The notes below the pieces were generated by a model. The model saw nothing but the letters and a program-made list of their open reading frames with translations, made no database searches and had not been told where the DNA came from. 64,000 nt of DNA, taken from positions 3,650,001-3,714,000 of the forward strand of contig NZ_JAUALB010000001.1 in assembly GCF_030345795.1 (NCBI RefSeq). Reading direction: 5' to 3'. Positions 221 through 15,152 of the stretch are shown here, piece after piece. The position numbers were made by a program, and so were the translations under genes. Source of the stretch: Micromonospora sp. WMMA1363 (lineage in GTDB: Bacteria > Actinomycetota > Actinomycetes > Mycobacteriales > Micromonosporaceae). Within the stretch, counting starts at the first letter, position 1. Each line of letters starts with the position of its first letter.

Positions 221-1306
221 GTGAGTGCAGCCGGACAGGTCAGCGGTGAGACTGACGTCCCCGAAGACCAGGCCGACGGGCACACGGCGCGACGGGGGCG
301 GCATCACGGGTCGTTCATGCCGGCCGGCGCCGCGAGTGGCACCGAGGGGCACCCAGCGGAGGCGGGTACCGCCGTGGTCGTGGTCGTGACGGTACTGCTG
401 GTACTGCTGGTGGTCGGGCAGTCACCAGTCACTGTCGGCCTTGGTGCTCGGCTGCTGGCGACGTGGACCACTGTCTTCGTTTCGGTGTTGGTGCAGGCGG
501 TGCCCTTCTTGGTGGCGGGTGTGGTGTTGTCCGCAGTCATCGCTACATGCGTCCCGCCGTCGTTCTGGGCGCGGGCGCTGCCGGAACGATCCGTTCTCGC
601 GGTGCCGGTTGCCGGCGCTGCCGGTGTGCTGCTTCCGGGTTGCGAGTGCGGCGCCGTACCGATGGGTGCTGCGCTCGTGCGCCGAGGCGTGACGCCGGCG
701 GTCGCGGTGACGTTCCTACTGGCCGCGCCGGCGGTCAACCCGGTCGTACTCACGGCTACCGCGGTCGCGTTTCCGGCCAACCCGGAGATGGTGCTGGCGC
801 GTGGCCTCGCCAGCATGACGGTGGCCGTGGCCATGGGCTGGCTGTGGTTGCGCTGGGGCCGCACGGACTGGATCAAGCTGCCGAGCCGGCCTGAAGAGAC
901 CCGCCGGGCGCGAGCGTTCTGGCTGTCGCTACGCCACGACATTCTGCACGCCGGTGGGTTCCTGGTCGTCGGCGCGGCGGTCGCCGCGAGTGTCAACGTG
1001 TTGCTACCGGAACGGGCACTCGGTGTCGTTGTCGGCAACTGGGTCGTCGAGGTGCTGATCCTCGCCACGTTGGCCGTGGTCCTGTCGCTCTGTTCGGAGG
1101 CGGACGCTTTCGTCGCGGCGTCGATGTCGCAGTTCTCCCTGACCGCGCGGTTGGTGTTCCTGGTCGTCGGCCCCGCCGTCGACGTCAAGCTGATCGCCAT
1201 GCAGGCTGGGGTGTTCGGTGGTCGATTCACCCGCCGTTTCGTACCCGCCACACTGGCCGTCGCTATCGGTGTCGCGTCCGTAGCCGGCGCGGTCTTGCTG
1301 CCCTAG
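221..1306 (+). CDS. YraQ/ArsP-type permease (DUF318 family)
   Basis: A polytopic membrane protein of 361 residues with about eight to ten hydrophobic segments. It belongs to the YraQ/UPF0718 permease family, known by the segment GCECGAVPMG near residue 140 and by SEADAF near residue 292. The first 45 residues are polar and poorly conserved, so the true start may be downstream of the GTG used here; no good ribosome-binding site precedes 221. The next gene begins 12 bases downstream and encodes the usual partner of these permeases. The substrate is unknown. The Zur-like operator at 23-47 suggests control by zinc, so transport of zinc or a zinc complex is a reasonable but untested idea. Confidence 0.8.
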   Translation: MSAAGQVSGETDVPEDQADGHTARRGRHHGSFMPAGAASGTEGHPAEAGTAVVVVVTVLLVLLVVGQSPVTVGLGARLLATWTTVFVSVLVQAVPFLVAGVVLSAVIATCVPPSFWARALPERSVLAVPVAGAAGVLLPGCECGAVPMGAALVRRGVTPAVAVTFLLAAPAVNPVVLTATAVAFPANPEMVLARGLASMTVAVAMGWLWLRWGRTDWIKLPSRPEETRRARAFWLSLRHDILHAGGFLVVGAAVAASVNVLLPERALGVVVGNWVVEVLILATLAVVLSLCSEADAFVAASMSQFSLTARLVFLVVGPAVDVKLIAMQAGVFGGRFTRRFVPATLAVAIGVASVAGAVLLP

Positions 1307-1318
1307 CTCGGAGGACAG

Positions 1319-2056
1319 GTGCACCGCCTTGCTCAGTCGCTCCTGCTCCTGGTGTTCGGCGCCACCATGCTGCGGACGGGTCTGACCGACCTGCACCTGC
1401 GCTACGTTGCCGAGCCGTTGGGCCCGTTGCTGGTGGTCGCTGGCGGCACAGTCTTGATCGCCGCCCTGGTCGCGTTGCGGCACGACCTGGACCTGGCGGA
1501 CACACGGGCCACCGTCCGCGTCGGTCCGGGCTCGGTCGGCCATCAGCACGGCGGCGATCACGGTCCGGCGGTTGCCTGGCTGCTTGTCCTGCCCGTGCTC
1601 GCGCTGACGTTGCTGGCGCCGCCGGCGCTTGGCGCCTACCGAGCGGAGCGGACCGGCACCATGCTGCACCGGTCGCCGGGTGTGTCGTACCCGGCGTTGC
1701 CTGCCGAGGATCCCGTCACGCTCACCCTCTACGAATTCGCCTACCGGGCGTCAACGGACGCCGGCGCCTCTCTCGCCGGCCGCAGGGTCCGACTGATCGG
1801 TTTCGTCGCGACCGGTCCGGACGGCCGGCTCCTGCTGGCGCGGATCGTCGTGTCCTGCTGCGCCGCGGACGGCAGACCGATCAAGGTCGGCCTGACCGGT
1901 CAGGTACCTGCCAGGCTCGTCCCAGACACGTGGATAGAAGTCACTGGCCGGCGCAGCACTCGCATCGGCACCGACCCCGCCAACGACGGGCCCATCCCCT
2001 ACCTACACGTTGACGGTTGGCAACCCGTGCCAGCGCCGCGGCAGCCGTACGAGTGA
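1319..2056 (+). CDS. TIGR03943 family putative permease subunit
   Basis: A 245-residue protein that starts at GTG with a clear GGAGG five bases upstream. Two N-terminal hydrophobic segments (about residues 5-22 and 33-50) and a third near 80-100 are followed by a roughly 120-residue extracytoplasmic domain containing a CC pair near residue 180. This matches the YcgQ/TIGR03943 family, which is almost always encoded next to a YraQ-type permease, as here. It probably forms a complex with the product of the preceding gene. Family membership is judged by layout and context; the biochemical role is not known. Confidence 0.75.
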   Translation: MHRLAQSLLLLVFGATMLRTGLTDLHLRYVAEPLGPLLVVAGGTVLIAALVALRHDLDLADTRATVRVGPGSVGHQHGGDHGPAVAWLLVLPVLALTLLAPPALGAYRAERTGTMLHRSPGVSYPALPAEDPVTLTLYEFAYRASTDAGASLAGRRVRLIGFVATGPDGRLLLARIVVSCCAADGRPIKVGLTGQVPARLVPDTWIEVTGRRSTRIGTDPANDGPIPYLHVDGWQPVPAPRQPYE

Positions 2057-2420: not shown

Positions 2421-3074
2421 TCAGGGGAGGACTTCGAAGGTCCAGGTCTTGGCGCCGGAGCTGATGGTCGTGCCGTTGGCGGCCAGTTTGCCGGTGACCT
2501 CGAAGGTGACGGTGTAGATGCCGGCGGCGTCGAAGCCCCAGTTGACGTGGGCGTGGGTGTTGCGGTTGACGTTGAGGCTGTCGGGCAGGCCGTTGCCGCT
2601 GTCGAACAGCACGGTCGGGGTTCCGCCGGATACGGTGTAGACGCTGAAACCGGCCGGCCCGGCGACGTTGGTGAGCTTGAAGGTGACACGGTTGTTCTGG
2701 AACACACCACTGGGCACCTCGGTGGTGTTCCATCCGGCCCAGAGCAGCCCGGCGGTGCTGGCCTGGGACAGCACCCAGGCTTGGCCGCCGGCGCCGAGGA
2801 ACGACCAGGCACCACCGCCGGGCACGGTGACCTTAGCGCTGGTGGGAACGCGCAGGACGACGTCGGCGGGGTTGCGCTCCACCGACGGGCTGACGGTGTC
2901 ATCGAGCAGGTTGACGGTGAGCGCGCCGCTGGCGTAGTCGACGTCGATGACGTCGACGTGGCCGCTGGACAGCACGATCGGCGCCGCGGCCGCAGGGGTG
3001 GCGGTGCCGGCGAGCAGCGCGGCGGTCAGGGCAAGGCCGGCGAGGAAACGGCTGCGGGTACGCACAGCGCTCAC
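2421..3074 (-). CDS. Secreted anchored-repeat (TIGR03769-type) protein
   Basis: A 217-residue exported protein: a signal peptide (residues 1-31, ending in a run of Ala) followed by one 'choice-of-anchor M'/TIGR03769-type beta domain that fills the rest. Diagnostic elements are GHVD (His39, Asp41), FLG near 92, WAGWNT near 112, and HAH (174-176) followed by Trp-Gly-Phe. The start is a GTG overlapping the TGA of the upstream gene (GTGA), so the two are translationally coupled; a longer open frame upstream is an artefact. No membrane anchor or sortase signal follows the domain, so the protein is probably released or held by partners. It is the last gene of the zinc-locus operon and is probably expressed from the Zur-controlled promoter at 3756-3785. 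The histidines suggest metal binding (inference). Confidence 0.8.
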   Translation of the reverse strand: MSAVRTRSRFLAGLALTAALLAGTATPAAAAPIVLSSGHVDVIDVDYASGALTVNLLDDTVSPSVERNPADVVLRVPTSAKVTVPGGGAWSFLGAGGQAWVLSQASTAGLLWAGWNTTEVPSGVFQNNRVTFKLTNVAGPAGFSVYTVSGGTPTVLFDSGNGLPDSLNVNRNTHAHVNWGFDAAGIYTVTFEVTGKLAANGTTISSGAKTWTFEVLP

Positions 3075-3718
3075 GCCCTGACCACGACGCGCAGGGTGGC
3101 CGCCTCGCTGGTGACCTGCTGCCCGGTGGCAGCGAGGGTGCCGGTGGCGCGGACGGTGAGGCAGTAGGTGCCGGCGCGGTCGAACGCCCAGTTGGCGTGC
3201 AGGTGGTCGCCGGCGGTCAGAGCGATGGTGTCGGGCAGACCGTCGCCGCTGTCGGCGAGGACGGTGGGCTGCCCGACGGCGTTCTCGGTGTAGATGGCGA
3301 GTTGCCCGGGTCCCCTGACCGACTGCAGGTTGAGGGTGAGCGCGTCGCCGGTGAAGGTGCCGGCTTCGACTTCCTCGGCGGCGATTCCGGGCCACACGAG
3401 GTCGGTGTTCTGGATCTCGGGCAGGATCCACACCTTCGACGCCCCGGGGGTGCCGAGGAAGCCGAAGGCGGGATCGTTCGGGACAGTGACCTTGGCCTGC
3501 CGCTTCACGACGATCTTGACCTCGTCGGTGGCGTACTCGACGTCGTTGTCCTCGTCGTGGACGCCGAGTTCCAACTCGCCGGCCTCGTACGCGATGTCGA
3601 CCAGGTCGAGGTGCCCGGAGTTGAACGTCACCACGGCGGCCTGCGCCGGCGGCACTGCCGCGAGCATCGCCGCGGTCACCGCCCCGGAGGCGAGAAGCAG
3701 GCGGATCGGCTTACGCAC
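3071..3718 (-). CDS. Secreted anchored-repeat (TIGR03769-type) protein
   Basis: A 215-residue exported protein with a signal peptide (1-27) and a single anchored-repeat domain. The GHLD motif is at His36/Asp38 and the HLH motif at 172-174, followed by Asn-Trp-Ala-Phe. The domain is more acidic than its siblings (EDNDVEY, 56-62). The GTG start is chosen because GGAAAGGAG sits just upstream and the codons begin a proper signal peptide; the frame continues upstream across the promoter but has no RBS there. It overlaps the next gene by four bases. A Zur-like operator lies 40 bases upstream, so this pair can be induced separately from the importer genes. A secreted zinc-binding or zinc-delivery role is inferred. 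Confidence 0.8.
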   Translation of the reverse strand: MRKPIRLLLASGAVTAAMLAAVPPAQAAVVTFNSGHLDLVDIAYEAGELELGVHDEDNDVEYATDEVKIVVKRQAKVTVPNDPAFGFLGTPGASKVWILPEIQNTDLVWPGIAAEEVEAGTFTGDALTLNLQSVRGPGQLAIYTENAVGQPTVLADSGDGLPDTIALTAGDHLHANWAFDRAGTYCLTVRATGTLAATGQQVTSEAATLRVVVRA

Positions 3719-3755
3719 GAAAGGCTCCTTTCCATGCGGTCCCCAGTAGACCACA

Positions 3756-3785
3756 CTATTGAAAATGATAGTCGTTTCACTTAAT
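3756..3785 (-). promoter_or_regulatory. Zur-box-like operator within a leftward promoter
   Basis: On the minus strand the palindrome TGAAACGACTATCATTTTCA (3760-3779) lies between a GTGAAA -35 element and a TAGTGT -10 element spaced by 16 bases. It matches the actinobacterial Zur-box pattern (TGAAAAYGA core) and the other boxes of this window. A repressor bound here would cover both promoter elements. It controls the two secreted anchored-repeat genes at 3718-2421. Confidence 0.65.
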
Positions 3786-3884
3786 GCGGGGAAGGGGATC
3801 TCGGGGCCAACAGCGACCCAACCGCCTTCGTCCACGTCCCAGCTCCTGGGGACAGGCCACCCGGGCGCCGGGGCCGGCATTCGG

Positions 3885-4826
3885 CTAGCGAGGGGCGGAC
3901 GGTGACGCCTGGTGTGGTTGGGGCTGGCCGATGTGGGCATCGGGTGGCGTACTCTGCGTGAGTTCCCGCTCGGTCGGACGCTTCCACCGCCGGGTCAGCA
4001 GGCCGTGTCGTGGGGCGATCAGCCAGGCGGCGAGGAAGACGGCGGTGGCGACCAGGACGATGGTGCCGCCGACCGGTGTGTCGTAGCTCCAGGACAGGTA
4101 CAGCCCGACGAGGGCCGACGCGCCGCCGACCAGCGGGGCGAGCAGCATCATGACGCCGAGCCGGTCGGTGAGCAGGCGGGCTGCGGCGGCGGGGGTGATC
4201 AGCAGAGCGAGGACGAGGATGTTGCCGATGGTCTGTAGGGAGATCACCACGGCCAGGGTGACCAGGACGTAGAGCGCGACGTCGAGCCAGAAGACCGGCA
4301 GCCCCATCGAGCGGGACATCTCCCGGTCCAGGCAGACCGCGACGAATTCCTTGTGCAGGGCGAGCACCAGGCCGAGGATGACCAGGCCGGTGCCGCCGAC
4401 GAGGTAGAGGTCCCGGTTTGGGATGCCGGTGATCGAGCCGAACAGGAACTGTTGCAGCGACCCGGCGTAGCCGGGGGCCTGGGAGATGATCACGATGCCG
4501 AGGGCGAACGCGGCGACCAGGAAGACGCCGATCAGGGAGTCCTCCTTGACGCGCCGGTTCTGCGAGAAGATCGCGATCAGCAGTGCGGTGGCGAGGCCGG
4601 CGGCGGCGCCACCGAGGACCAGGCTGCCCTGCAGGACGAAGGCGACCGCGATGCCCGGGAAGACCGCGTGCGCCACGGCGTCGCCGATGAAGGCCATCCC
4701 CCGGAGTACGACGTAGCAGCCGACGACGCCGCAGACGATGCTGGACATGACCGCGATCGCCAGTGCCTTGGGCAGGAAGGCGAGGTCGGGGTTGAGCAGG
4801 TCGGTGAGGAATTCGGTGATCGACAT
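3885..4826 (-). CDS. Zinc/manganese-type ABC transporter permease (anchored-repeat type)
   Basis: A 313-residue integral membrane protein of the ABC-3 (ZnuB/MntB) family with about eight or nine transmembrane segments. Family signatures are the early GCYVVLRGMAFIGDAVAHAV segment and the ALLITPAAAA segment in the second half. It ends in a polar cytoplasmic tail of about 40 residues. It starts with ATG overlapping the TGA of the ATPase gene (ATGA). The associated ATPase, ZnuA-like lipoprotein and surface proteins identify it as the permease of the 'anchored repeat-type' ABC transporter (TIGR03770-like). It should import Zn2+ handed over by the lipoprotein at 6557-8143. Confidence 0.88.
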   Translation of the reverse strand: MSITEFLTDLLNPDLAFLPKALAIAVMSSIVCGVVGCYVVLRGMAFIGDAVAHAVFPGIAVAFVLQGSLVLGGAAAGLATALLIAIFSQNRRVKEDSLIGVFLVAAFALGIVIISQAPGYAGSLQQFLFGSITGIPNRDLYLVGGTGLVILGLVLALHKEFVAVCLDREMSRSMGLPVFWLDVALYVLVTLAVVISLQTIGNILVLALLITPAAAARLLTDRLGVMMLLAPLVGGASALVGLYLSWSYDTPVGGTIVLVATAVFLAAWLIAPRHGLLTRRWKRPTERELTQSTPPDAHIGQPQPHQASPSAPR

Positions 4827-5569
4827 CAGGCTGCCCTCACGAGCTTCAGCAGCGCAGACGTCGCGCTGACCCCGAAGGTCTGTGTCCACAGCTCGGCGTC
4901 CTGCAGGTCCGCCGGGCGCCCATCGGCGATGATCCGGCCGTTGAGCAGGACCAGCCGGGTGCAGGAGTCCACCGCCGCGACCAGGTCGTGGGTGGTCATC
5001 AGCACCTCGCGGCCCTCCTGCGCCAGGCTGGTGAACAGGTCGCCCAGCAGTTCCTGGGTGGGCATGTCCAGTCCGGTGAACGGCTCGTCGAGCAGCAGGA
5101 TGCTCGGCGCGAGCGCGAGCGCGCGCGCGACCAGGACACGTTGGCGTTGCCCACCGGAGAGTTCACCGACCGGCCGGCGGCGCAGAGCGGTGAGTTGCAC
5201 GCGGTCGAGCGCGTCGCCGACCGCCCGCCAGTCGGCCACGCCGGGACGACGGAGCAACCCGATCCGGCCGGTGCGACCACTCATCACGGCCTGCTCCACC
5301 GAGATCGGGAAGTCCCAGCTGAACTCGTGGCGCTGGGGGACGTAGCCGATCCCCGATCGCCCGGGACGTGCCGGCTCACCCTCCACCAACACCCGGCCGC
5401 CGCGGGTGCGGATCAGCGCCAGGACGGCGCGCAGCAGGGTGGTCTTGCCGGCGCCGTTGGGGCCCAGCAGCCCCACCAGTTCGCCACGGTCGAGGTGCAG
5501 GTGTACGTCCCGCAGGACCGGCCGGCCGCCGAGATCCACGTCCAACCCTTCGATGTCGAGTGCTTTCAC
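4826..5569 (-). CDS. Zinc/manganese-type ABC transporter ATP-binding protein (anchored-repeat type)
   Basis: A 247-residue ABC ATPase. Walker A is GPNGAGKTT (36-44), the Q loop lies near YVPQR (76-80), the signature is LSGGQ (137-141), Walker B is LLLDEP (158-163) and the switch His is in TTHDL (192-196). It is closest to ZnuC/MntA-type ATPases of metal importers. The GTG start overlaps the TGA of the upstream surface-protein gene (GTGA), and the gene itself overlaps the permease gene by one base, so the three are coupled. A much longer upstream open frame on this strand is the shadow of the neighbouring gene. Confidence 0.9.
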   Translation of the reverse strand: MKALDIEGLDVDLGGRPVLRDVHLHLDRGELVGLLGPNGAGKTTLLRAVLALIRTRGGRVLVEGEPARPGRSGIGYVPQRHEFSWDFPISVEQAVMSGRTGRIGLLRRPGVADWRAVGDALDRVQLTALRRRPVGELSGGQRQRVLVARALALAPSILLLDEPFTGLDMPTQELLGDLFTSLAQEGREVLMTTHDLVAAVDSCTRLVLLNGRIIADGRPADLQDAELWTQTFGVSATSALLKLVRAA

Positions 5570-6546
5570 GGCTGACCCTCCGACGATGCGATCACGCGCT
5601 CCCGCTCGGCCCGCCGTCTGGCGCCGCGTCCGCGCAGCAGGAGAACGACCAGGCCGAGAGCGAGCACGACGGCCGTCCCGGCCAGTGCCGTCACCAGCAG
5701 CGTCTGAGAACCATCGGCCCGATCGTCGACTCCGGCCGGGTCCTGGCCGGGCGGCTCCTGGCCGACCGGTACGGCGATGTCCGCCGTGGCGGCGAAGGCC
5801 TCGTCGGCGCTGGTGGCGTCCCCCACCGCGAAGCGCAGCGTACGGGTCGCCGAGGCCTTCTCCCCGTTGACCAGGTCGGCCGACACCTGCACCGCGACCA
5901 GGTAGACACCGGGTGCGGTGAAGACCCAGTTGGCGTGGGTGTGGGTGTTGACCTCGGCCCAGAAGGGTTGAGCCTTCGCCTCGGCCGACCGCCACAGCGG
6001 CTGAGGCGCGGCGAAGTTGCCCGACTGGAGGTAGGTCGTGAGGGTCCCCGGGCCGCGTACGCCGAGCAGGGTCAGGGTGACACCTCGGTCGATGGTCTGC
6101 ATCACCCGCGGGTCCTGGGTGTTCCAGCCTAGCCAGATCACGTCCGGCGCCTGGACCTGCGGCACCACGTACACCCGCTTGCCGGCCTCGACGCCCAGGA
6201 ACGCGTACGCCGGGTCGTCGGGGACGGTGTGCAGCGCGGCGTCGGACACCCGCAACAGGGTCTCGTCCGGGTCACGCCACACTGGTTGCGCCTGCGTGCC
6301 GTCGTGGATCAGCAGCGTCCACCGGTTGTCGACGTAGCGGGGACCGATGTCGACGTGCCCGGTGGCGAGCGTCGTCCGACCGGCGGTGATGGGCTGGTCG
6401 GCCGCGATCGACTGGTCGAGGTTCGGCGTCGGCGCCGCTGCCCGCGCCGGGTTCGGTGCCGCCGACAGCACCAGCAGCGCCGCGATCGCGGCTCGCAGAA
6501 TGACTGTGGTCGCGCGGGTGCGGGGACGTGCCCGTCCTGCCGTCAC
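5566..6546 (-). CDS. Membrane-anchored surface protein with one anchored-repeat domain
   Basis: A 326-residue protein with a signal peptide (about 1-37), one TIGR03769-type domain (about 58-255; GHVD at His64/Asp66, HTH at 202-204 followed by ANW), a polar linker, one C-terminal transmembrane helix (about 282-303) and an Arg-rich cytoplasmic tail. It therefore displays the repeat domain on the outer face of the membrane. GTG is the start, with GGAGG six bases upstream. It lies between the substrate-binding lipoprotein and the ATPase, a position that suggests it docks on the importer or hands metal to it. No sortase motif is seen. The metal-relay role is inference. Confidence 0.8.
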   Translation of the reverse strand: MTAGRARPRTRATTVILRAAIAALLVLSAAPNPARAAAPTPNLDQSIAADQPITAGRTTLATGHVDIGPRYVDNRWTLLIHDGTQAQPVWRDPDETLLRVSDAALHTVPDDPAYAFLGVEAGKRVYVVPQVQAPDVIWLGWNTQDPRVMQTIDRGVTLTLLGVRGPGTLTTYLQSGNFAAPQPLWRSAEAKAQPFWAEVNTHTHANWVFTAPGVYLVAVQVSADLVNGEKASATRTLRFAVGDATSADEAFAATADIAVPVGQEPPGQDPAGVDDRADGSQTLLVTALAGTAVVLALGLVVLLLRGRGARRRAERERVIASSEGQP

Positions 6547-6556
6547 TGGTCCTCCA

Positions 6557-8143
6557 TCACTTGTCCGTGGTCAGGCAATCGCGCAGCGATTCGGCGTTGA
6601 ACCGCATCATCTCCGCGTAGGTGGTGACGGCGCGGTCGAACGCGTCGCCGTAGATCGGGCACACCCGCAGGTCCTGTTCCCGGGCCACCTCGGTCAGCGT
6701 GGCGGACCGGGCCGCCAGGTTCGGCTCCAGGAACACGGCGGGAATCCGCAGGTTGCGGATCGTCTCGGTGAGCCGGCGGCGGTCGGCGAGGCTCGGCTCG
6801 GTGGCGGGGTTGGGGGTGACGAAGCCGGAGATCTGCACCCCGTATGCCTGGCCCAGATAGCCGAACGCGTCGTGCGTGGTGACGAGGTGACGCCGCGACG
6901 GTGGAATCCGCGCGATGGTGTCCCGGACGTAGGTGTCGAGCTCTTCCAGTTGCCGGATGTAGGCCGAGGCGTTCGCCCGGTAGGTCGCCGCCCCCTCAGG
7001 GTCGACTCCGGTCAGTGTGTCCCGGATGAGCTCGGTGTAGGCGATGGCGTTGCGGACGTTCTGCCACAGGTGCGGGTCGATCTCGCCGTGCACGTGCTTG
7101 CCGAGAACGGCCTGCGGAAGCTGATACACCTGGGTGCCGGGTCGACCGAGGAACCGGAACCGCCGGTCGCCGGGAACCTCCAGCATCGCCTTGTTCGGCA
7201 CCTCGACGACGGTGCGCGCCGGGTCGTACACCCGTTGGGTCGCCTCGCCGCCACCCTCGGGGTCGGCGAGTAGGTAGAGCCGCCGCTGGTCGAGGTCGAC
7301 GGTGACGTCGGCGTGGCCGCCGTTCAGCACCTCCGACATCCCCGGCACCGAGTGCGGGTCCACCCCGACGGCGAAGGTGAACACCTGCTCGCCCATGGGG
7401 ACGGGCGCTGTCTGCGGATCGACGGCCAGCCGCGCCCGCATCGTCAGCCGGTAGACACCCGGCTCGGTGAACGCCCAGCTCATGTGGGTGTGCGCGTCCG
7501 GCGGCAGCATGGCGGTGTCGTCCCGGTAGCCGTTGGCGGCGTCGAACCCGTCGGCGGAGTCGACGTAGAACGACGGGTTGCCGAACGACTCGGTCAGGTA
7601 CGCGAACATCCGACCCGGCCCGTCCGTGGCGGTCGCGCTGAGCAGCACGTCCGAGGAACGGTTCGCCCCGTGCGACGCACCGGTGCCGCGCACCCGCATA
7701 CCCAGCCAGATGGTGTCCAGCGACACGTCCTCGACCAGCGGAATGATCTCCGCCGCGTACTTGACCGCCCCCTCGGCCAGCGAGATGTTCGGCACGCCGT
7801 CGCGCAGGTTCGCGTCCAGCGCCTTGATGACGGCCTGCTCCTCCAGCAGCAGGTAGTTGCTGAACGCCACGTCGGCGTAGACGACGTCGCGGATGTCCCG
7901 CAGCGACGCCTCGTAGCTGTGCGGATCGGCCCCGTCCGGCACCAACGAGGTGACCCTCACTCGGTCACCACCGACGTTTCCTACCAGGTCGCGCAGGATT
8001 CCGGTGGTCGTCACGACCTGTACCCGCTCGTCGTGCGCGCTCAACGCCACCTCCGACCGGCAGCCGCCGGCGAGCAACGCGGCCAGCAGCGGCAGCACGA
8101 CCAGCCGCCGCGTGCCGACCCGGTGGGTGCCCGTCCTCGGCAC
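6557..8143 (-). CDS. Anchored-repeat ABC transporter substrate-binding lipoprotein (ZnuA-like)
   Basis: A 528-residue lipoprotein (lipobox LLAGGC, Cys28). It is a cluster A-I, ZnuA-like metal-binding protein split by a large insertion. The ZnuA fold runs from about 40 to 130 and resumes at about 350. All four expected metal ligands are visible: His75 (DPHSYE), His358 (DPHLW), His424 (TTHDAF) and Asp500 (YGD). Between them lie about 210 residues of anchored-repeat domain, with HTH at 218-220 and GHAD at His277/Asp279. These halves come in the opposite order to the stand-alone domains, so the insert looks circularly permuted. The layout fits TIGR03772-type proteins. It should bind Zn2+ (possibly Mn2+) and deliver it to the permease at 3885-4826. 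Confidence 0.9.
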   Translation of the reverse strand: MPRTGTHRVGTRRLVVLPLLAALLAGGCRSEVALSAHDERVQVVTTTGILRDLVGNVGGDRVRVTSLVPDGADPHSYEASLRDIRDVVYADVAFSNYLLLEEQAVIKALDANLRDGVPNISLAEGAVKYAAEIIPLVEDVSLDTIWLGMRVRGTGASHGANRSSDVLLSATATDGPGRMFAYLTESFGNPSFYVDSADGFDAANGYRDDTAMLPPDAHTHMSWAFTEPGVYRLTMRARLAVDPQTAPVPMGEQVFTFAVGVDPHSVPGMSEVLNGGHADVTVDLDQRRLYLLADPEGGGEATQRVYDPARTVVEVPNKAMLEVPGDRRFRFLGRPGTQVYQLPQAVLGKHVHGEIDPHLWQNVRNAIAYTELIRDTLTGVDPEGAATYRANASAYIRQLEELDTYVRDTIARIPPSRRHLVTTHDAFGYLGQAYGVQISGFVTPNPATEPSLADRRRLTETIRNLRIPAVFLEPNLAARSATLTEVAREQDLRVCPIYGDAFDRAVTTYAEMMRFNAESLRDCLTTDK

Positions 8144-8147
8144 CCCG

Positions 8148-9719
8148 TCACCCGGTCCGAAGGGCGGCGCGGCGGCGGGCCAGCAGCAACAGCAGGGCTC
8201 CGAGCGATACCAGGACGACGCCGAGCGCTGCGGCCGTCAGCACCCAGCTGGCACCCGTAAGCGGCAGCGGCCCATCCTGGCGCCCGCCGCCGTCGCTGTC
8301 CCCGCCGCCGTCGCCGTTCCCGCCGCCGGGGCCGAAGCCGGCGTTCGGATCGGTGTTGTCGCCGACGGCGATGGTGAGCGTCTTCGTGTCGGTGACCGCC
8401 CTGCCGGCGGTGGTGGTGCCGCTCATCTGCACCGCGAGGCGGTACAGACCGGGCTTGCCGAATGCCCAGTTGCCGTGCGTGTGGGTGTTGAGCGGGATGT
8501 CCAGTTTCTGCGGGAACGGCCTGGTCGAGTCGAACAGCACGTCGGCCTTGCCGAACGAGCCGGTCAGGAAGAGGGCGAACCGCCCGGGCCCGTCGACCCC
8601 CTTCAGCGTCCACGTGACGTTGCCCTTGACGCCCGACACGACGGACGCGTGCTGGGTGTTCCAGCCCGGCCAGACGAGACCCGCCTGCTGGGTCTGCGGC
8701 AGCACCCACACGGTCTCGCCCGGCTTGCCGAGGAAGTCGGCTCCGGCGGGCACCGTGATCTTCGCCTTGTCCTTGGCATGCAGGACCACGTCGGCGGTCT
8801 CCCGCCAGACCGGAGGACTGGTCCGGTCGTCCTTGATCCGGATCGTCCAGCTGTCGCCGTTCAACATCGGGCCCATGTCGACGTGCCCGTCACTGATCAC
8901 TTGCCGAGCACCGGCAGCGGGTTTCGCGGGCTTCGGCGCGGCAGCGGGCTTCGGCGCGGCAGCGGGTGCGGCGAATGCCTCGGCGCGCGGCTGCGCCGCC
9001 TGCGTCAGCAGAGCAGGCGACGCCCGCTCGGCCGGCTCGATCGCCGGGACGTGGACGCGGTACGTCGCATCGGCGCGCACCGTCTCCCCCGAGCGCAGGG
9101 CTGCCGAGCCGGTCAGGGTGAGCCGGTACTCGCCGGCCGCGTCGAAGGCCCACACCACGCCGCCGGTACGCGTGCCCGCCGGCAGTCGCGTCGACCGCTG
9201 CACGCCGGCACCATTGCCGAACAGCGGGGTCGCCGCGCCGAGGCCGGACAGGGTGTAGGCGGTGAACGTTCCCGGCCCCTCGACCGAGCGCAGCATCAGG
9301 GTCACCCGGTCGTCGACGACGACGCCCGGGCGTACTCCGGTGGTGTCCAGAGCCGGGAACCCGGTGTCACCGGCGGACAGGGCCCACACGGCGTGGCCCG
9401 GCCGTCCGAGAATGGTTAAGGCCGGTCCGGCCGGCACCCGGCCGGCCAGGCCGCCGTTTGGCCCGAGCACCACCTCGGCCGGGTCGCGCCCGGCCGCGCC
9501 ACCGGCCGCCCGCGCGGCGTCCCGAAAGCGCAGCGACATCGACTCACCGTCGAGCGCGACGGAGACCAGGTCGGCGCCGGCCGAGGTGACGGCAACCGGT
9601 TCCGCGGAGGTTGGCGTTGCCGCGGGGGCCAGTGCCAGCACGACGGCGGCCAAACTCGCGGCACCGGCGCGCATACGTCTCGTCCTCATTAGGTCGCGCC
9701 CCAGGCGTAACCGAGTCAC
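8148..9719 (-). CDS. LPLTG-anchored surface protein with two anchored-repeat domains (ABC-associated)
   Basis: A 523-residue exported protein. After a signal peptide (about 1-39) come a first repeat domain (about 42-225), an Ala/Pro/Lys linker (226-270), a second repeat domain (about 272-440), a Gly/Asp-rich spacer, and an LPLTG sortase motif (485-489) with a hydrophobic segment and Arg-rich tail. It should be covalently bound to peptidoglycan. The second domain keeps GHVD (His279/Asp281) and HTH (413-415). The first has GAD (Ala49) and RTG (184-186) in the same places, so both His motifs are lost together. Architecture matches TIGR03773. The GTG start overlaps the upstream TGA; an in-frame ATG at codon 11 is a possible alternative. 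It stops four bases before the lipoprotein gene. Confidence 0.85.
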   Translation of the reverse strand: MTRLRLGRDLMRTRRMRAGAASLAAVVLALAPAATPTSAEPVAVTSAGADLVSVALDGESMSLRFRDAARAAGGAAGRDPAEVVLGPNGGLAGRVPAGPALTILGRPGHAVWALSAGDTGFPALDTTGVRPGVVVDDRVTLMLRSVEGPGTFTAYTLSGLGAATPLFGNGAGVQRSTRLPAGTRTGGVVWAFDAAGEYRLTLTGSAALRSGETVRADATYRVHVPAIEPAERASPALLTQAAQPRAEAFAAPAAAPKPAAAPKPAKPAAGARQVISDGHVDMGPMLNGDSWTIRIKDDRTSPPVWRETADVVLHAKDKAKITVPAGADFLGKPGETVWVLPQTQQAGLVWPGWNTQHASVVSGVKGNVTWTLKGVDGPGRFALFLTGSFGKADVLFDSTRPFPQKLDIPLNTHTHGNWAFGKPGLYRLAVQMSGTTTAGRAVTDTKTLTIAVGDNTDPNAGFGPGGGNGDGGGDSDGGGRQDGPLPLTGASWVLTAAALGVVLVSLGALLLLLARRRAALRTG

Positions 9720-10969
9720 TTCTCGTCCTTCCCCGTGTGGTCGATGGTGGGATGTCGGTTGTCCAGGCCCAGGCCGCGACGATCGGCGTCCGGCATCGGA
9801 CGGCCGTCGGGTGCTGATCCGCCGTCGCCGGCGGCCGGGGGCTGCCCGTCGGCAACCACTGCGGCGTCCTGGCCGTCCGGTGCCCGGCTGGCCTGCGCGC
9901 GGCCCTCCTCCCGGGCGGCGGCCACCGCTCGCGCGAGCTGCGCCGCCCGGCGACGCCGGGCCGCGATCAGTGCCCAGCCGGCGAGGGCAAGCAGAGCGAG
10001 CACGGCCAACTGCGGCCAGGGCATCGCCCAGACGGCCGCCCGCGCCGTGCCCGCCGGCGGTGGCGGGTCGAGGACCTGATCGCCCACGGCAGCCGGCGTG
10101 ACGGTCGCGTTCGCGGTCAGCCGGAACAGCGGCGGGACACCCGACATGCGTACGGTGGCGGTCAGCTCGCCGCCGGGCAGGATCTCCGGTAGGGCCTCAC
10201 CGTCCACGGACCGCCGGGCCAGGCCGAACGGTCCGGCCACGCCGAGCACGGGCTGCCCGGCGAGCCGCACGTTGCCGGTGTTGTGGACGGTGAACGTGGC
10301 GGTGACCGTGCCACCGGCCAGCGGGTTGACCGAGCCGGTGTGCCGTACACGCACATCTTCGACGGTCAGCGTCGGATGCAGCTCACCGGTGACCCGCAGG
10401 TAGATCCGCGCGCCGACCCGGTGGTCGACGGCGACCTGGTTACCCTGCGCGTCGACGGCGATGCCGGCGAGTGAGGCGACGATCCCTCCGGCGTGGTCCC
10501 CTGGCGTGGCGTTTCGCGGGACGGTGAGCGTGAACGGTACGTCCAGCCGGGACGTCGACGGGATGGTCAGGGTACGGCGCGGAAGGCGGACCCAGGAGCC
10601 CACGTCGGTGGGCTTCTGATCGGCGGCCAGCAGATCGAACCCACCCCGCGTGGTGGTGACCGCGTCGCTGGCGTAGAGGTTCAGGGTGAGCGGCCGGGTG
10701 GAGTGGTTCGTGACGCCGACGTAGTCGGTCAGGGTGGCGCCCGGGTCGAGCTTGTAGCTGAACGCCGCCCGGCCGTTCGGCCCGCGTGCGCTCGATGGTG
10801 CCACTCCCCACGTCGCCGCGGCCGGATCAGGGGAGGCGCTGGACGGAGCTGAGGGTCCCGGCTGCCCCGGCCGGGTGGCGGGGGCAGGTGCGGCCAGCGT
10901 CGAGGCAGGTGGCGCGGGGACCACGCCGAGCAGGGCGATCCCGGCGGCGATGGTGGCGAGCAGGCGCAT
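9716..10969 (-). CDS. DUF916/WxL-interacting-like surface membrane protein
   Basis: A 417-residue type I membrane protein. A signal peptide (about 1-28) and Pro/Ala/Ser stretch lead to two immunoglobulin-like segments, the first about 52-200 and the second about 200-300. One transmembrane helix follows (about 318-337) and then a basic, probably disordered cytoplasmic tail of about 80 residues. The first half resembles the DUF916 (WxLIP) domain that accompanies WxL proteins in Firmicutes: a YKLDPGATLTDYV-like strand, then a PGDHAGGIVASL-like strand. The ATG at 10969 is chosen because it opens the signal peptide; the frame extends upstream without an RBS. It overlaps the LPLTG protein gene (GTGA). 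It probably holds the WxL-like protein of the next gene on the membrane (inference). Confidence 0.65.
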   Translation of the reverse strand: MRLLATIAAGIALLGVVPAPPASTLAAPAPATRPGQPGPSAPSSASPDPAAATWGVAPSSARGPNGRAAFSYKLDPGATLTDYVGVTNHSTRPLTLNLYASDAVTTTRGGFDLLAADQKPTDVGSWVRLPRRTLTIPSTSRLDVPFTLTVPRNATPGDHAGGIVASLAGIAVDAQGNQVAVDHRVGARIYLRVTGELHPTLTVEDVRVRHTGSVNPLAGGTVTATFTVHNTGNVRLAGQPVLGVAGPFGLARRSVDGEALPEILPGGELTATVRMSGVPPLFRLTANATVTPAAVGDQVLDPPPPAGTARAAVWAMPWPQLAVLALLALAGWALIAARRRRAAQLARAVAAAREEGRAQASRAPDGQDAAVVADGQPPAAGDGGSAPDGRPMPDADRRGLGLDNRHPTIDHTGKDEK

Positions 10970-11052
10970 TGCGGGGACGGTGTCCGTTCCTGTGGTGACG
11001 AGGGGAGGCGCGGGGCGGGCGGGTCGCGGCAACGACACACCCACCCCGCGGT

Positions 11053-11095: not shown

Positions 11096-12565
11096 TCAGA
11101 TGGCGGTGAGGGTCAGGGTCGCGGTGTAGGTCCCCGCCGCCGTCTCGGTGGGCAGGCTCAGCCGCAGTCCCGCGCCCAACTGCGCGGTACCCCGGCCGGC
11201 GCCGGACGGCGCCGAGCCCAGCACCGCGCTGTTGCCGAGGCCACCGCCGACCCCGACGACGTACGGTGCCACCTCCGGGCCGGCGACCACGCCCTGCCCG
11301 TCGGCCTGAGCCAGAACGCGCGGCGTCCAGCCGAGGTAGCCGGCGCTGAACGTCTTGTCGTCCGGCCCGGTGAAGTCGGCCGGGATCTGCCCGGACGCGT
11401 TCCAGCCCGGCTGACCTGCGCGGGTGTCGGTCACCGTGACCGGACGGAGCTCGCCGTTACTCTCCCACCGGTCGCCGGCGACGTTGAGCCGTGCCGGCGG
11501 CAGCACCACGGCCCGGTCGTCGGGGTTGACGCTGATCACCAGTGAACCCTGGGTCTCGTCGACCGACGCGGTGATCGTCTGCGAGGCGCCCGGCTCCTGC
11601 GGCGGGAACGCCACCCACAGGGTCACCGGTTCGCTGGTCGCGACGACCGCGTGGTCGTCGTCGTAGAGCTTGGCGACGTACTCGCAGGCGTTCAGCTCCC
11701 GCGTGGCGGTGAAGGAGTAGCTGACGCCCCCCTCACCCGGAATGATGGTCCAGTCCACGCCGGGGCACTTGCTGAACCAGTGGTAGTGGTCCAGCTCGGT
11801 CTGCGGCGTCTGCACCGCGGTGAGCGTGACCGTGTCGTTGGGCTGGTACTCGTCGGCCATGCCGAGGACCGACAGGCTGGCCTCCGGACCGCCGCCGGAC
11901 AGCTCGCCGACGACGAACGAGTAGTCGACCGGCCCGGTGCTGACCGTGGTGCCGTTGGTCAGCGTCGCGTCGGCCTGGAACTTCAGGGTGTAGCTGCCCA
12001 GCGCGCTGAACGCCCAGTTCGAGTGCGCGTGGGTGGGCACCGGCACGTCGATCGCGTCCGGGAGCCCGTCGTCGGAGCGGAACTTCATGATCGGACCGCC
12101 GAACGAGTCCTGGGTGAACAGCGTGACGTTGCCCGGCCCCTGCACGTCGACCAGACTCAGCCGTACCTTGTTCCCCTCGAACACTCCGGAGCCGAGCGTC
12201 GTGGTGTTCCAGCCCGGCCAGAGCAGGTCCGGGTCCTGGGTCATCGGTAGCAGCCAGATCTGGCTGTCCACCGGGCCGAGGAACGCGAACCGGGGATCAT
12301 CCGGAACGGCCATGGCCGCCTCCGGCAGAACCTGGAACGTCACATCCGCCGGGTCCCGGATCACACCCGGGCTGACCGTGTCGTCATGCACCTTCAACGA
12401 CAGCCTGCCGTCGCTGTAGTGCACGTCGACCGCGTCGGTGTGCCCCTTGGACAGCACCACCTTCTCGGCCGCCGACGCAGCGGCGGGCGCCAGCACCGTG
12501 CCGGCGACCACCACCGCCCCGGCGACCAGGGCCGCGAGGCCGCGAGCCCTCACCGTCGCATTCAT
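11096..12565 (-). CDS. Secreted anchored-repeat protein with C-terminal WxL-like region
   Basis: A 489-residue exported protein. A signal peptide (1-33) precedes one anchored-repeat domain (about 34-220; GHTD at His42/Asp44, HAH at 179-181). A PKD/Ig-like middle segment follows (about 228-325, with two Cys in CPGVDW and NACEY). The C-terminal region (about 330-489) ends in repeated short strands typical of WxL wall-binding domains, but no strict W-x-L motif is seen. ATG at 12565 has GGGGAGG just upstream and begins the signal peptide. It lies 48 bases after rpsN and is cotranscribed with it. Pairing with the DUF916-like gene recalls WxL surface complexes. The WxL assignment is tentative; the anchored-repeat domain is clear. 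Confidence 0.75.
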   Translation of the reverse strand: MNATVRARGLAALVAGAVVVAGTVLAPAAASAAEKVVLSKGHTDAVDVHYSDGRLSLKVHDDTVSPGVIRDPADVTFQVLPEAAMAVPDDPRFAFLGPVDSQIWLLPMTQDPDLLWPGWNTTTLGSGVFEGNKVRLSLVDVQGPGNVTLFTQDSFGGPIMKFRSDDGLPDAIDVPVPTHAHSNWAFSALGSYTLKFQADATLTNGTTVSTGPVDYSFVVGELSGGGPEASLSVLGMADEYQPNDTVTLTAVQTPQTELDHYHWFSKCPGVDWTIIPGEGGVSYSFTATRELNACEYVAKLYDDDHAVVATSEPVTLWVAFPPQEPGASQTITASVDETQGSLVISVNPDDRAVVLPPARLNVAGDRWESNGELRPVTVTDTRAGQPGWNASGQIPADFTGPDDKTFSAGYLGWTPRVLAQADGQGVVAGPEVAPYVVGVGGGLGNSAVLGSAPSGAGRGTAQLGAGLRLSLPTETAAGTYTATLTLTAI

Positions 12566-12613
12566 ACCTCCCCTTTCACACCGCGCACCCGCACGGTGGT
12601 ACATGTGGTGACG

Positions 12614-13351: not shown

Positions 13352-13374
13352 GGTAACGACAACGGTTATCATTT
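13352..13374 (-). promoter_or_regulatory. Zur-box-like operator of the rpmB-rpmG-rpsN-surface protein operon
   Basis: The sequence TAACGACAACGGTTATCATT (13354-13373) aligns with the left-edge box (TAACGACAATCGTTGATC) and with the box before the CobW-like gene. It lies between the tiny ORF at 13380-13538 and the rpmB start. Repression by zinc-loaded Zur is the standard control of such ribosomal paralogues. No clear -10/-35 pair was identified. Confidence 0.65.
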
Positions 13375-13543: not shown

Positions 13544-13564
13544 TATAATGACAATCGTTTTCAA
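13544..13564 (+). promoter_or_regulatory. Zur-box-like operator overlapping a TATAAT promoter
   Basis: A perfect -10 hexamer TATAAT (13544-13549) is overlapped by the palindrome ATAATGACAATCGTTTTCA (13545-13563), which matches the actinobacterial Zur-box pattern. The rightward CobW-like gene starts 20 bases further on with GAGAGGAA as its RBS. Repressor binding would block the -10 element directly. The box may also control the tiny leftward ORF starting at 13538. Confidence 0.7.

Positions 13565-13583: not shown

Positions 13584-15152
<1,569 letters not shown>

Follow-up and report, generated by a model that had tools for sequence, protein, structure and literature searches.

Gene organization of the locus

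The window analysed here is a stretch of 64,000 nucleotides from Micromonospora sp. WMMA1363 (contig NZ_JAUALB010000001.1, positions 3,650,001 to 3,714,000), and all positions are those of the window. On its minus strand, genes for ABC transporter components lie together with genes for proteins that carry the choice-of-anchor M domain (NF038134), which is called stand-alone in proteins other than the SBP lipoprotein. The features are as follows.

2421..3431, minus strand: probably secreted protein with one stand-alone domain (NF038134, E = 4.5e-49); the ORF as listed probably starts too early
3071..3940, minus strand: probably secreted protein with one stand-alone domain (NF038134, E = 5.1e-50)
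3885..4889, minus strand: ABC permease, TIGR03770
4826..5995, minus strand: ABC ATPase, TIGR03771, with the ATPase part from about residue 145
5566..6546, minus strand: protein with a single stand-alone domain and, at its C-terminus, a hydrophobic stretch; it occupies the position that ZnuE has in C. diphtheriae (NF038134, E = 2.2e-59; gene order as in PMC12445094)
6557..8143, minus strand: TIGR03772 anchored repeat ABC transporter SBP lipoprotein, 528 aa (TIGR03772, E = 5.3e-250, positions 1-486; PF01297 in two stretches)
8148..9719, minus strand: TIGR03773 surface protein of LPXTG type; of its two repeats the first is without the HxD/HxH tetrad
9716..11044, minus strand: WxLIP-like peptidoglycan-binding protein within the operon (PF06030, E = 4.2e-11)
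11096..12604, minus strand: probably secreted protein with one stand-alone domain (NF038134, E = 1.9e-55)
13355..13373: site resembling a Zur box, lying upstream of the operon and of L28-L33-S14 (it differs at 2 positions from the core of the C. glutamicum cg0042 box; 0 expected)

The genes for ribosomal proteins S14, L33 and L28 (12614-13349, minus strand) lie directly upstream of the operon on the same strand. Zinc-free ribosomal protein paralogues carry no Cys, and S14 and L33 of the window are without Cys. The site at 13355-13373 was found with the Zur box sequence of C. glutamicum cg0042 as the query (PMC2823685). Two more Zur-like sites, with 0.02 expected for the consensus used, were observed at 13549-13563 (2 mismatches), preceding the frame for a GTPase-L31 fusion, and at 3760-3774 (3 mismatches), close to where the single-domain gene 3071-3940 begins. 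The order SBP, single-domain protein, ATPase and permease is the same as that of C. diphtheriae znuAECB, where the single-domain protein ZnuE is reported to be needed for growth in low zinc and its conserved His to have a role (PMC12445094). Gene order and Zur-like boxes thus point to a putative zinc uptake operon. The WxLIP-like protein is a possible wall anchor for the zinc proteins.

In the single open frame at 13584-15152 (plus strand), a COG0523-type GTPase (residues 21-412) is followed by a ribosomal protein L31 of type B (residues 437-515, above the cut-off); NF047431 MRF was the best match of the GTPase part, followed by ZigA, both below their cut-offs. Among 25 other genomes of the family, nine had a match spanning most of the GTPase, and one match covered residues 15-519 with a stop. 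Since none of these 25 genomes had a frame open over both GTPase and L31, the fusion looks either specific to the Micromonospora sp. WMMA1363 genome or like a sequence error. Adjoining the zinc operon, 221-2056 (plus strand) encodes an ArsP_1-type permease, with weak matches to the SO_0444 and SaoE metal efflux families, and a TIGR03943 protein.

A ZnuA-like lipoprotein interrupted by a second domain

The SBP ORF has a GTG start and a lipobox-like Cys at residue 28; residues are numbered in the ORF from M as 1, and mature numbering is 27 lower. The protein is a full-length member of TIGR03772 (830 bits against a cut-off of 350.45, over positions 1-486, the whole model), a family model that includes the insert and treats the region as one linear stretch. 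In the literature searched, the family name is in use and the accession TIGR03772 is not named. The match to PF01297 (ZnuA) was split into two stretches with a copy of the choice-of-anchor M domain (NF038134) between them. AztC was both the best structural match and the second family match, with the score for the AztC family itself (NF040870) below the curated cut-off (201.3 versus 350 bits). The ligand set of a cluster A-I zinc-type SBP (ZnuA/AztC-like), three His and one Asp at known positions, was found as H75, H358, H424 and D500. These ligands flank the insert in the ORF, as the original prediction had read them, and are invariant in 79 sequences; in that alignment no His is invariant outside the SBP site, the insert tetrad and the linker. 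The lipoprotein gene is divided as follows.

7727..8020, minus strand: ZnuA/AztC-like fold, first part, residues 42-139, with H75 (codon 7919-7921); residues 38-102 align to the MntA 5hx7 chain, 10-74
7364..7726, minus strand: choice-of-anchor M second half, placed first, residues 140-260, with IWLG, HTH 218-220 (7484-7492) and FAVG (NF038134 77-184; AlphaFold2 strands match stand-alone strands 93-197)
7337..7363, minus strand: bridge linking the former C- and N-termini, 9 residues with the boundaries used for structure comparison
7112..7336, minus strand: choice-of-anchor M first half, placed second, residues 270-344, with GHAD 276-279 (7307-7318), FRFLG and LPQ (NF038134 1-73; AlphaFold2 strands match stand-alone strands 14-84)
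7073..7111, minus strand: linker AVLGKHVHGEIDP with H350 and H352 (7088-7096), which are H323/H325 in mature numbering and invariant in 79 sequences; pLDDT below 50 at model residues 320-329
6569..7072, minus strand: remainder of the ZnuA/AztC-like fold, residues 358-525, with H358, H424 (6872-6874) and D500 (6644-6646)

The halves of the inserted domain are exchanged

Along the chain, the SBP shows IWLGMRV (145-151), HTH (218-220) and then WAF, followed by GHAD (276-279), FRFLGRPG (about 329-336) and LPQ (342-344). The prediction that these motifs place the second half of the domain before the first was confirmed by a whole-genome profile search, in which the SBP frame matched NF038134 77-184 (E = 1.1e-14, 56.5 bits, above the cut-off) and then 1-73 (E = 4.0e-8, 35.2 bits, below it). 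Over the whole protein the two stretches together reached 88.5 bits against the cut-off of 55 bits, with 77-184 preceding 1-73 in place of the linear order 1-184. The other six NF038134 matches in the genome were in normal order, five of them over 1- or 2-184 and one, a degenerate repeat, over 7-184. With both parts of the profile present and their order exchanged, the insert is homologous to the domain and very probably permuted.

We also built our own HMM of 184 positions from stand-alone domains only. Against it, the insert scored 61.7 bits as it stands (positions 76-184) and 106.8 bits when rotated in silico (2-184). With 500 shuffles each, the rotated insert did not exceed 70.2 bits when its first half was shuffled, or 50.8 bits when its second half was. 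The two pieces alone scored 63.7 and 45.7 bits, above the maxima of 3.6 bits (second half) and 6.6 bits (first half) in 500 shuffles of each. Between the NF038134 profile ends, the bridge of the SBP measures 12 aa.

Structure prediction led to the same order. AlphaFold2 models were obtained for the SBP (pLDDT 84.1, pTM 0.69, with loose linkers) and for a stand-alone domain (pLDDT 95.2, pTM 0.90), and after rotation the secondary structure of insert and stand-alone domain agreed at 156 of 181 positions, compared with a mean of 43% and a maximum of 73% for cyclic-shift controls. An insert with the strand order of stand-alone domains, which would have spoken against the original prediction, was looked for in these models and was absent.

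The SBP family and its genomic companions

The exchanged order was observed in all 81 SBPs compared (the window and 80 loci, from Micromonospora and Streptomyces to Microbacterium, Solirubrobacter and Conexibacter), and likewise in 26 of 26 further loci and 120 of 120 database proteins. Some species are shared among the three sets, and one of the 120 is a reading frame that also runs through normal domains lying upstream. Among 332 other domain-bearing ORFs, none had a second half and a first half as separate pieces in that order. Considering that every SBP set has the exchanged order and none of the 332 other ORFs does, the permutation is old and, judging by the members seen, fixed across the SBP family. 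Profile match, predicted secondary structure and survey together strongly support a circular permutation, and the insert is very probably a nearly complete choice-of-anchor M domain in permuted form. Of the original claim of a circular permutation made on insertion, the permutation stands, on a rotated HMM match with its cut in one loop, rotated strands and the order in all SBPs; that it was made on insertion could not be upheld, the event being old and its steps not recoverable from these data.

In comparison with the NF038134/TIGR03769 repeats, the insert has both profile parts (1-73 and 77-184), the tetrad and the same strands, but its halves are exchanged, it sits inside another fold, and its bridge is short: 7-15 aa in the 81 SBPs by our own HMM, as against 24-389 aa for 100 tandem-repeat linkers.

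The SBP was detected (E 1e-90) in 27 of 394 genomes of the class, and NF038134 matches (E 1e-10) in 28 of 394. All 27 SBP genomes had at least four NF038134 matches each, which exceeds what the SBP alone gives, so that stand-alone domains are present in 27 of 27; the 28th genome had two matches (best E = 4.1e-15) and no SBP. A stand-alone domain ORF was present at each of the 80 loci. It starts just after the SBP in 66 of them, and in the other 14 a domain-bearing open frame ends about 0.9-1.1 kb downstream of the SBP and is open further upstream. The SBP co-occurs near-perfectly with stand-alone domains.

The HxD/HxH tetrad

HxD of the first half and HxH of the second form a tetrad, which in the SBP insert consists of H276, D278, H218 and H220. 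In 505 distinct stand-alone rows, both motifs were present in 466 and neither in 38, with HxH alone in one and HxD alone in none, a somewhat rough table in that many rows without HxD are gapped there, some from a late match start. The tetrad was aligned in 201 of 203 SBP rows, and the remaining two show GHVD and GHAD in translation. In the first repeat of the TIGR03773 surface protein (8148-9719) the whole tetrad is gone, a true loss by direct reading, and the same loss was seen in 30 first repeats of two-repeat proteins (58 such proteins).

Coupling analysis of stand-alone domains ranked H7-H144, H7-H146, D9-H146 and D9-H144 at 2, 7, 18 and 23 of 16110 pairs; these ranks are high because the tetrad is lost jointly. 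Pairs that connect residues by the cut with the tetrad site (5-77, 8-79, 80-144 and 82-146) ranked 4, 27, 33 and 11, and therefore the tether point of the insert should lie near its metal site. The insert tetrad would, we infer, bind zinc; the same has been proposed for the HxD/HxH proteins of C. diphtheriae that have stand-alone domains.

In that organism, Peng, Lyman and Schmitt (2025) reported that ZnuA carries HxD/HxH in reverse orientation with 45 residues between, and gave its ligands as H63, H317 and H383 (PMC12445094). The string "permut" does not occur in the main text of that paper; what was published there as a reversed motif is read here as a permuted domain. In the same study, ZnuE with its His changed to Ala still shifted with zinc, the result for the corresponding form of ZnuG was ambiguous, and loss of znuA had a modest effect only (PMC12445094). 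On account of these results, there may be zinc sites other than the tetrad, and the SBP may not be alone in accepting zinc.

Position of the insert and the proposed zinc transfer

The insert lies between two stretches aligned to MntA (5hx7), in the loop directly before the DPH ligand, and its siting is thereby established. The prediction that it lies beside the ZnuA site holds along the chain, on which H358 follows the Q of LPQ by 14 residues; at this level of sequence the two sites would be neighbours. The linker that follows the insert keeps HVHG and has low model confidence. On the other side, residues 124-140 (7724-7774, minus strand), which include KYAAEIIPLVEDV and precede the insert, are strongly conserved, yet form the block of lowest model confidence; going by the model, an interface with a partner would fit this stretch.

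In AztC the element that receives zinc occupies the same position, N-terminal to the second His ligand: this D-loop (residues 117-133, before H138) and its three His are described as needed for zinc transfer from the metallochaperone AztD (PMC7463823). The element in AztC is a flexible His loop and its partner AztD a beta-propeller, whereas the SBP has a folded domain, and partners with the same domain. Polyhistidine triad proteins are a further case of surface zinc binders, proposed to feed AdcAII (PMC12445094). The description text of TIGR03769 reportedly already hints at a relay for the present gene group. For Polyhistidine triad proteins we know of no domain shared with an AdcAII-type SBP.

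We propose that an AztC/ZnuA-type lipoprotein carries a permuted choice-of-anchor M domain in the loop before its second ligand, at the D-loop position, with the old N- and C-termini joined through the short bridge and new ends opened in the LPQ-WLG loop. Membrane- and wall-bound stand-alone domains would collect zinc and hand it to the permuted insert, from which the flexible HVHG linker would pass it to H75/H358/H424/D500 for ABC import. A permuted insert that acts as zinc acceptor is, in our judgement, likely. For the full relay, from wall proteins through the insert to the transporter, we see about an even chance. Somewhat less probable than that, and tentative, is a homotypic relay from wall domain to SBP insert to HVHG linker to SBP site, in which a feeder domain was captured in place of the receiving loop and the permutation sets the two sites adjacent.

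Alternative readings

The insert could instead serve for docking or recognition, with wall proteins or the permease as partners, and itself carry no zinc to the SBP site. Co-occurrence with stand-alone domains agrees with this, in that like domains could pair, and the conserved KYAAEIIPLVEDV stretch by the insert has the low model confidence that a partner interface might show. However, the insert keeps its tetrad while other repeats have lost theirs, and this, like the two invariant His of the linker, fits metal handling better; we regard pure docking as unlikely.

A little less likely again is an insert that stores or buffers zinc, or serves as a lid that tunes the affinity of the SBP site, with no directed relay involved. 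Its position in a loop before a ligand would suit a lid, and storage was named by the authors as possible for ZnuF and ZnuG (PMC12445094). One insert per SBP would give little capacity, and nothing speaks directly against this reading.

A third alternative concerns the fold itself: the two pieces could be independent half-domains, or be swapped between two lipoproteins in a dimer, and the pTM of only 0.69 for the SBP model leaves some room for either. Against this, each half supplies two residues of a tetrad that is kept or lost as a unit in stand-alone domains and kept in the SBPs, the bridge is short in all 81 SBPs, and the block pLDDT of model residues 121-320 is 76-98. Cross-half coupling points the same way, weakly. 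The top 10 cross-half pairs of stand-alone domains were modestly raised in SBP inserts (mean percentile 0.73, reached by 1.3% of shifted and 2.3% of re-paired controls), and controls equalled the cross-half coupling in 1.3-2.5% of cases when shifted and 1.8-3.7% when re-paired; among the inserts' own 20 strongest cross-half pairs, one was in the stand-alone top 100. Two independent half domains, the outcome named beforehand as contrary to the prediction, are thus made very unlikely by the tetrad, with a modest contribution from coupling.

That HxD and HxH were merely reversed by chance or convergence, without a shared domain, would agree with the description of ZnuA by Peng et al. solely as a motif in reverse orientation (PMC12445094), but is ruled out by the rotated match over 2-184, the profile homology and the matching strands.

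Possible origin and implications of the permuted domain

For the permuted, zinc-accepting insert that we favour, the simplest origin would be tandem capture, in which two consecutive repeats of a tandem array were kept in part, the earlier one as its second half and the later one as its first half, with later shortening. We offer this as a guess. A linker motif chosen post hoc was found in its strict form in 6 of 106 non-last repeats, 2 of 77 last repeats and 0 of 212 single repeats, a weak signal, and the half identities that bear on this origin were near 30%.

The reversed motif is already in print; what is new is its explanation as a permuted domain, located at the position of a receiving loop, and a published oddity of ZnuA, its reversed HxD/HxH, is accounted for in this way. 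The SBP family offers a clear natural example of permutation and insertion combined in one domain, fixed across the family. The permuted domain also predicts where a second metal site would be located in these SBPs, and a relay that starts at the wall proteins and ends at the ABC transporter becomes directly testable through four residues of the insert.
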